Below, piece after piece: positions 7,347 through 18,037 of a DNA stretch of 64,000 nt (position 1 is the stretch's first letter; each line of letters starts with the position of its first letter). A program made the translations under genes and the position numbers. A model generated the notes under the pieces. That model made no database searches. It was not told the origin of the DNA and saw nothing but the letters and a program-made list of their open reading frames with translations. Source of the stretch: Owenia fusiformis (Eukaryota > Annelida > Polychaeta > Sabellida > Oweniidae); the NCBI GenBank assembly GCA_903813345.2, contig CAIIXF020000007.1:18773564-18837563 (forward strand). The letters are read 5' to 3'.

Positions 7347-7502
7347 CTACAAAGTATACAAATTATTTTAACATGAATTGTTATTTATAATGTAGAATTA
7401 ATGTTTTATACATAATATCAAGTATACATGTATATTCGCTATTTATTAGTAAGTGACATTTCAATTTACACTTTATTAGGTTGTAGTCTTGCTTCAACCA
7501 CC

Positions 7503-8047
7503 TGTGACCTCCAAACACCTCACCAAGGATGGGAAACCAATTGTGACCTCCAAACACCTCACCAAGGATGGGAAACCAATTGTGACCTCCAAACACCTCA
7601 CCAAGGATAGGAAACCAATTGTGACCTCCAAACACCTCACCAAGGATGGGAAACCAATTGTGACCTCCAAACACCTCACCAAGGATGGGAAACCAATTGT
7701 GACCTCCAAACACCTCACCAAGGATAGGAAACCAATTGTGACCTCCAAACACCTCACCAAGGATGGGAAACCAATTGTGACCTCCAAACACCTCATCAAG
7801 GATGGGAAACCAATTGTGACCTCCAAACACCTCACAAAGGATGGGAAACCAATTGTGACCTCCAAACACCTCACCAAGGATGGGAAACCAATTGTGACCT
7901 CCAAACACCTCATCACGGATGGGAAACCAATTGTGACCTCCAAACACCTCACCAAGGATGGGAAACCAATTGTGACCCCCAAACACCTCACCAAGGATAG
8001 GAAGCCAATTGTGACCTCCACATACCTCACCTCACCAATGATAGGAA
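7503..8047. repeat. 39-bp minisatellite, 13 full copies plus a diverged 14th
   Basis: Unit TGTGACCTCCAAACACCTCA + CCAAGGATGGGAAACCAAT, period exactly 39 bp, from 7503 to 8009, with a last partial copy to about 8047. Copies differ at one to three positions. Because 39 is divisible by three, frames stay open on both strands (for example SKHLTKDGKPIVT repeated on plus), but these ORFs are a by-product: the array lies inside ANKIB1 intron 1 and has no splice context or homology. Confidence 0.95.
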
Positions 8048-14492: not shown

Positions 14493-14705
14493 TGTGAAAT
14501 ACCCTGTTTGCTTCAACTAAAATGCCCTGTTTGCTTCAAGTGAAATGCCCTGTTTGCATCAAGTAAAATGCCCTGTTTGCTTAAGTGAAATGCCCTGTTT
14601 GCATCAAGTAAAATGCCCTGTTTGCTTCAAGTAAAATGCTCTGTTTGTTTCAAATAAAATCCCTGTTTGTTTTAAGTGAAATGTCCTCTACTTATTTTAA
14701 GTTTA
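14493..14705. repeat. 23-bp tandem repeat, about 9 copies
   Basis: Unit TGAAATGCCCTGTTTGCTTC + AAG. Copies alternate TGAAATG/TAAAATG starts and GCTTCAAG/GCATCAAG ends, suggesting a higher-order dimer. Copies decay toward the right end. Confidence 0.85.
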
Positions 14706-15178
14706 CCCTGAATCTCCATTTGTAATCTATACATGTACTTACAAAGTTATGATGCTGGTCTTACTGATCTCAAATGTAGCTCACATGACCTTAAAAAGGT
14801 GTAAAATCTATGGCTAGTCATAAACAGAAAATATAGTACAGTGAAACCTGTATATCCGAATACACTTTTTTTTCGGTCTCAAATTTGTTATTTCCTATTA
14901 ACTTACATGTTAATAAAACCTTGAAATGTAAACACCTGTTAATTTGAGCACTTTTGGTCAGTCTCAGAGTTATTTGGATTAAACAGGTTTTACCGTATAA
15001 TGGTTTTCCAATTACATATTCCAAAAGTGCCTCGGCTAAATTAATAAATTAAAAAGAGACTTATAATCTAAGGAGCATAGATAAATATAGTCTACCTCGT
15101 TATAATATTAAGCTAAGCACAGAAGAACTTGTAAATGGGAGCAACTTTCCTTATATTTGCTATTAATGGCTCCATTTA

Positions 15179-16738
15179 GGTGCGGAAACTCGTTTTTATC
15201 AATTAGCGATAAAGATAATTATCATTTATCGATAATTTTTATCAATTAGCGATAAATTTGATAATTATCAATTTTAGCTGATATTATCAGCTAATGCTAA
15301 TTTCATATGTGCCTTTCACTTTTATCAATTAGCGATAAATTTGATAATTATCAATTATCGATAAATTTTATCAATTAGCGATAAATTTGATAAATATCAA
15401 TTAGCGATAAATTTGATAATTTTGATACATGGCAGACATGAAATTAGCATTAGCTGATAATATCAGATAAATTTGATAATTATCAATTTTAGCTGATAAT
15501 ATCAGCTAATGCTAATTTCACTTATGCCCTTTTCTTCCTAACATTGACTCCAGACCCAAAATAATTATCAAATTTATCACTTTTAGCTGATATTATCAGC
15601 TAATGCTAATTTACCTGGTGCCATTTTCTATGAACATCACCTCCAGACCCAAAATTTTTTAGCGATAAAAGCTCCAGACCCAAATTTTTTTAGCGATAAA
15701 AGCGATAGTTTTGATAATTACCAAATTTATCACTTTTAGCTGATATTATCAGCTAATGCTAATTTACCTGGTGCCATTTTCTATGAACATCACCTCCAGA
15801 CCCAAAATTTTTTAGCGATAAAAGCGCCAGACCCAAAATTTTTTAGCGATAAAAGCGATAGTTTTGATAATTATCAAATTTATCACTTTTAGCTGATATT
15901 ATCAGCTAATGCTAATTTACATGGTGCCATTTTCAATGAACATCACCTCCAGACCCAAAATTTTTTAGCGATAAAAGCTCCAGACCCAAATTTTTTTAGC
16001 GATAAAAGCAATAGTTTTGATAATTATCAAATTCATCACTTTTAGTTGATATTATCAGCTAATGCTAATTTACCTGGTGCCATTTTCTATGAACATCACC
16101 TCCAGACCCAAAATTTTTTAGCGATAAAAGCGCCAGACCCAAAAAAATTTAGCGATAAAAGCGCCATACCCAAATTTTTTTAGCGATAAAAGCGATAGTT
16201 TTGATAATTATCAAATTTATCACTTTTAGCTGATATTATCAGCTAATGCTAATTTACCTGGTGCCATTTTCTATGAACATCACCTCCAGACCCAAAATTT
16301 TTTAGCGATAAAAACGCCAGACCCAAAATTTTTTAGCGATAAAAGCAAAAGTTTTGATAATTATCAAATTTATCACTTTTAGCTGATATTATCAGCTAAT
16401 GCTAATTTACCTGGTGCCATTTTCTCTGAGCATCACCTCCAGACCCAAAATTTTTTAGTGATAAAAGTGCCAGACCCAAAAGTTTTTAGCGATAAAAGCA
16501 ATAGTTTTGATAATTATCAAACTTATCAATTTTAGCTAATTTAACTTGTGCACTTTTGTCTTCGCATCGACTCCCCACCCAAAATTTTTTACCAATACTT
16601 TTGATAAAAGCAAATTGTTTTTCAGATTTAGACCAATTTATCCAAATTAGCGAAACTTTTATCAATTTTTGATAAAAACTCCCATTGAAATAACATGGGG
16701 GCTGGAGAAATTAGCAAATAAAAGTGACTTTCCGCACC
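15179..16738. mobile_element. 1.56-kb palindrome-packed array with short inverted termini
   Basis: Begins GGTGCGGAAAC (15179) and ends GTGACTTTCCGCACC (16738), so GGTGCGGAAA/TTTCCGCACC are inverted termini. The interior is almost entirely repeats. About eight copies of TTAGCTGATATTATCAGCTA + A occur near 15265, 15485, 15577, 15735, 15892, 16042, 16226 and 16380. Each is followed by TGCTAATTT and then CACCTCCAGACCCAAAATTT and TTTAGCGATAAAAGC modules, with TTTGATAATTATCAAA between units. Units are roughly 150-185 bp. No coding sequence. I read it as a non-autonomous DNA transposon filled by unit amplification; the class is unknown and no target duplication was identified. Confidence 0.75.
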
Positions 16739-16984
16739 AAGCTCATTAATGGAAGTTTGGATATGTCATAAATGCCAACTACTTTTGAATGCATATCTCT
16801 GATTGGAAAGCTAGATTTTGATCTACCTTATCTGACAAGGTTAGGCTAGTTCAATAATTTCTTATTAAAGAGTATACAATAGATGAGTCAAACTGTTAAA
16901 AAGGGTAGATGGTCGAGTCGTGCTCCCTTCAGTGACTTTTTTTAAATATATTACAGTTTTATATATTGTACCTAAATTACTGTA

Positions 16985-17753: not shown

Positions 17754-18037
17754 ATGGAGGCTCAGAGACATTGTGGCCCTCTCCATCTCTATTCTTCTGC
17801 GATGCAACAGAGATGACTCAGAGAATGGAGGCTCAGAGACATTGTGGCCCTCTCCATCTCTATTCTTCTGCGATGCAACAGAGATGACTCAGAGAATGGA
17901 GGCTCAGAGACATTGTGGCCCTCTCCATCTCTATTCTTCTGCGATGCAACAGAGATGACTCAGAGAATGGAGGCTCAGAGACATTGTGGCCCTCTCCATC
18001 TCTATTCTTCTGCGATGCAACAGAGATGGCTCAGAGA
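17754..18037. repeat. 71-bp tandem repeat, 4 nearly identical copies
   Basis: Unit starting ATGGAGGCTCAGAGACATTG at 17754, 17825, 17896 and 17967, period 71 bp, with almost no differences between copies, so the amplification is recent. It creates overlapping plus-strand ORFs (about 70 codons) that rotate through all three frames, as expected for a period not divisible by three. They are not genes. Confidence 0.93.

Follow-up and report, generated by a model that had tools for sequence, protein, structure and literature searches.

We found that the element at positions 15173-16744 of the window (the whole 64,000-nucleotide stretch of Owenia fusiformis DNA analysed here) is very probably one copy of a dispersed, non-autonomous class II cut-and-paste family, that is, a MITE with an internal palindromic minisatellite. 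An earlier note, made from the letters of the window, had described an expanded array of palindromes inside a transposon frame, and this main reading holds: the ends are dispersed in the genome, copies are bordered by 8-bp target-site duplications, and an empty site is present.

Extent and internal structure of the element

The inverted termini GGTGCGGAAA and TTTCCGCACC, which the earlier note had framing the element, were confirmed at positions 15179 and 16738. Comparison with copies elsewhere places the true boundaries 6 bp further out on each side (adding CATTTA at the left end and AAGCTC at the right one). Full-length copies carry GGTGCGGAAA inverted at both ends, allowing one mismatch, with the outer 6 bp unequal, and the ends of the family read CATTTAGGTGCGG...CCGCACCAA(G/C)CTC. 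No open reading frame of at least 120 amino acids was found in the element. The features of the locus are as follows.

15162-15169, forward strand: left target-site duplication ATTAATGG, identical to 16745-16752
15170-15172, no strand: extra CTC separating the left duplication from the 5' end, present in this copy only among those compared
15173-16744, forward strand: whole element, 1572 bp, boundaries from copies elsewhere
15173-15188, forward strand: 5' terminus CATTTAGGTGCGGAAA, pairing inverted with the 3' end exactly over the inner 10 bp, the outer 6 bp being unlike
15253-15491, no strand: imperfect inverted repeat of ~240 bp (foldback block), made up of TTTATCAATTAGCGATAAA, TTTGATAATTATCAAA and the long palindrome
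15561-16543, forward strand: core tandem array with a period of 153 bp (TRF), one unit being 184 bp with a third 31-bp sub-repeat
16544-16728, forward strand: unique 3' region before the terminus
16729-16744, forward strand: 3' terminus TTTCCGCACCAAGCTC
16745-16752, forward strand: right target-site duplication ATTAATGG

The near-perfect palindromes reported earlier for the units are real, and take the forms TTAGCTGATA-T-TATCAGCTAA and TTTGATAATTATCAAA. When short inverted repeats were counted (arms of at least 8, loops of at most 8), the element was found to contain 28, whereas 50 dinucleotide shuffles gave a mean of 1.2 and a maximum of 5. Such repeats make up 15.8% of its length; for the other 1.57-kb tiles of the window the median is 0. 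The description of the element as built almost wholly of palindromes was an overstatement. The core comprises about six units, rather than the eight or so first counted, namely five periods of 153 or 184 bp and one partial unit, with core palindromes spaced 153, 153, 153, 184 and 153 bp apart. Every core unit contains TTAGCTGATATTATCAGCTAA and TTTGATAATTATCAAA, together with CCAGACCC...TTTAGCGATAAAAG sub-repeats, of which there are two or three.

The first third of the element, previously taken for a merely different and simpler unit, is actually the imperfect inverted repeat at 15253-15491, with a self-complementarity of 80.8% over 239 bp. The 382 bp around this 5' block give a DNA fold of -87 kcal/mol, compared with -32 in shuffles (z = -12.8), while for one 153-bp core unit the gain over its shuffles is only modest (z = -2.7). 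Thus, of the row of hairpins proposed in the earlier note, the strong structure stands in the 5' block; along the core such a row is possible but weak. The accompanying proposal of two amplification rounds starting from a single palindromic core does not hold as stated, as the data neither demonstrate nor exclude it.

Other tandem repeats lie elsewhere in the window. A 23-bp repeat (AAATGCCCTGTTTGCTTCAAGTA, about 8 copies) occupies 14497-14687, just upstream of the element, and a 71-bp repeat (4 copies, 99%, apparently very recent) is found about 1 kb downstream at 17754-18037. At 7496-8031, a 39-bp repeat is present in 13.7 copies (95%); as 39 is divisible by three, both strands show long open frames of repetitive sequence.

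Dispersed copies, target-site duplications and possible partners

The genome (498 Mb in 525 contigs) was searched with the whole element and then with each end alone. Full or partial copies were recovered with the whole element on most large contigs, and the single-end searches recovered the same loci. When up to two mismatches were allowed, the terminal 22-mer had 137 sites in the genome, compared with 2 for a reversed control. About ten loci have both ends around a 153-bp core and span ~1.2-3.1 kb: nine core-bearing loci are 1233-2138 bp long, and the tenth (C5:25.1), at ~3.1 kb, contains extra DNA. The expectation that the termini would co-occur at many loci with differing numbers of units is therefore borne out by the genome searches. 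The copy number of the family is low, in the tens; many MITEs have hundreds or thousands of copies.

Diverged relatives were also recovered. The last ~120 bp of the 3' region together with the terminus is 94-98% conserved among copies of the A family, compared with 83-87% for the diverged B family, whose elements are mostly ~0.5-0.7 kb long (L023-L038, read from 3-kb loci). Most B-family elements sit at one fixed place in a larger dispersed repeat that is ~92-97% conserved for more than 2 kb, and this larger repeat has multiplied together with the elements inside it. A diverged form of ~0.7 kb, with the palindromes present and the 153-bp core absent, occurs at four loci with flanks in common, which indicates that it too is carried inside a larger repeat. 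Of five unpaired termini that were examined, one proved to be a minimal copy of 97 bp and two lie in the larger B repeat; the remaining two gave nothing. At a further locus (L078, G000:C11:27142310-27144141), flanking DNA and the 5' part of the element are tandemly duplicated, leaving two 5' ends and one 3' end.

We found perfect 8-bp target-site duplications at nine of 14 aligned copies (eight core-bearing loci and the 97-bp copy), and in 3599 shifted comparisons around each of these nine, a match of 8/8 was never reached. The nine duplications are mutually different: ATTAATGG (in the window), GTCTATGA, TCAATGTT, CTCTTTCT, ACATTTGG, AATATGTC, AGGATTCC, TGACGTTG and CAATACCC. The 8-bp duplication is absent at C3:12.88, C1:13.4 and C1:56.8, and from four copies within the larger repeat. 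To look for empty sites, the flanks of the nine copies were rejoined with a single duplication and searched in the genome. The rejoined site of C7:38.76 is uninterrupted in at least 40 paralogues of its high-copy host repeat (99% over 188-190 bp), and as the match runs across the junction, this is a precise empty site of the kind the earlier note had proposed to look for. Five single-copy targets, re-tested with a shortened query, yielded no empty paralogue, only the filled locus split at the duplication.

The 97-bp copy (L092, G000:C12:34162387-34162483) consists of the first 30 and the last 69 bases of the element with a 2-bp overlap at the join, and its perfect duplication, CAATACCC, is its own. 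Either the ends alone may suffice for movement, or the array may have been lost after insertion; the sequence fits both.

An 8-bp target duplication is compatible with hAT, P and other transposons. Domains of the hAT dimerisation, P-type (TNP-like_GBD) and MULE kinds occur in the genome, and none of the matches listed lies within a few kb of any listed terminus; a search for a transposase gene in the vicinity of the listed termini, and for pairs of termini up to several kb apart, likewise found none. The best autonomous candidate, a 3.98-kb segment at C3:32329640-32333790, has related ends, which on the 3' side are 82% alike over 133 bp. It was rejected, as it has broken short frames, apparently nested and resembling other elements, and no duplication. 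Points against reading the family as a MITE are this lack of an autonomous partner among the listed domain matches and termini, the outer 6 bp that are not inverted repeats, the copies without a duplication, and a copy number in the tens.

The element might instead be a foldback of P or Mutator kind, comparable to Galileo or Tetris, with the array taking part in transposition, although we consider this unlikely. The inverted block and internal repeats would then be extended terminal repeats with extra transposase binding sites, a proposal consistent with the 8-bp duplications, with an inverted block of ~240 bp near one end, and with the recurrence of the motif TTATCAA/TTGATAA in the 5' end, core and 3' end. 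The internal repeats of Galileo are reported to hold extra THAP binding sites (PMC4079207), and P-type and MULE transposase genes exist in the genome studied here. However, the inverted block is found at one end only, wholly in the 5' part, the array-less 97-bp copy has a perfect duplication, and no transposase with the ends of the family was found. Because the termini are short, the family does not belong among the foldback elements in the strict sense.

Behaviour and origin of the array

The number of core periods per copy ranges from about three to nine. Of the larger insertions and deletions that distinguish the copies, many correspond to whole units (30-31, 126/129 or 153-154 bp). Two copies at unrelated sites, C7:38.76 and C6:19.03, share 99.5% identity over 1421 bp; this indicates that the array can move as a whole. 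Among 61 repeat segments, 16 are closest to another segment of their own copy, compared with 7.6 by shuffling (maximum 15), which suggests mainly inherited arrays with some later growth in place. Growth purely in place is unsupported by these counts.

For a MITE with an internal minisatellite, these results fit the following course of events. A transposase, encoded elsewhere or now lost, would recognise both ends, and the whole element would be inserted, leaving the 8-bp target duplication seen in the copies and implied by the empty site. The array travels as cargo, as the two loci with near-identical arrays show, and its unit number shifts by whole units of 31, 126/129 or 153 bp, as seen in the unit-sized changes between copies. 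Slippage or unequal exchange, probably aided by hairpins at the palindromes, would drive this gain and loss.

That a MITE took up a satellite already present in the genome, instead of the array expanding within the element, is improbable, although this order of events has been suggested for the Xenopus element miDNA4 (PMC12628747). Free arrays of the unit were not found: all listed matches to the 153-bp unit in the assembly, in which arrays may be collapsed or missing, fall within intact, truncated or decayed copies of the element. The unit thus does not look like a genome-wide satellite occurring without these ends, the finding that the earlier note had set against its own reading, and an identity as satellite DNA is rejected in the absence of long free arrays among the listed matches. 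The 5' block and terminal regions, moreover, are built from the same motifs as the core, and the presence of palindromes without a 153-bp core in the ~0.7-kb relatives fits growth from within.

We regard it as improbable that the array is itself functional, with TTATCAA/TTGATAA and the long palindromes binding transposase or forming hairpins that drive expansion and mobility. If this were true, the element would be a self-enlarging transposon whose activity is set by the length of its array.

Helitrons leave no target duplication. A non-autonomous Helentron or HINE of the Pearl type, with embedded satellite repeats and rolling-circle spread, has a similar design (repeats of ~150-160 bp in a short array that has unique flanks, with palindromes; PMC7492417, PMC5139131) but is scarcely credible here, since an identity with Helentron/Pearl is ruled out for the family by the perfect 8-bp duplications of nine copies, and the empty site fits exact insertion with duplication.

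Read as a MITE with an internal minisatellite, the family offers a clean case, one that can be dated, of a mobile element in which a satellite-like array has arisen and been carried along. One genome holds copies with zero to nine periods, a 97-bp copy consisting of ends only, a near-identical pair and many empty paralogous sites, and could thereby help to separate a course in which the array grows first and then travels from one in which it grows in place.

Comparison with known systems

The earlier note knew of no named family with this design; however, MITEs and foldback elements with satellite-like arrays have been published (PMC5139131, PMC7492417, PMC12628747, PMC4079207). Our comparison with them is by description, and as no published family was matched by sequence, the family itself may be undescribed.

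In Xenopus, miDNA4 and Xstir are MITEs with satellite-like cores, and resemble the element in having terminal inverted repeats around satellite-like units whose number varies among copies (PMC12628747; PMC9659126). By these descriptions miDNA4 is a Tc1/mariner MITE, whereas the element studied here has an 8-bp duplication. Pearl/DTC84 of bivalves and Cg_HINE likewise have unique flanks around short arrays of ~160-bp repeats, and a further likeness is the conserved palindrome near the repeat junction in DTC84 (PMC5139131; PMC7492417). Pearl, however, has been moved to the non-autonomous Helentrons, which lack target duplications; the present family has them.

Tetris, a foldback element of Drosophila virilis, is likewise non-autonomous, with 8-10-bp duplications, variable internal tandem repeats and a partner that has not been found (PMC4079207). 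Its 220-bp repeats lie inside long terminal inverted repeats, whereas here a central array lies between short ends, with an inverted block on the 5' side. Galileo, of the P superfamily, is also foldback-like and internally repetitive, with strong structural variation among copies, but its terminal inverted repeats are long and its P-type transposase is known, a partner for which no counterpart was found here. Taken together, miDNA4/Xstir, Pearl/DTC84 and Tetris cover every feature seen in the element.
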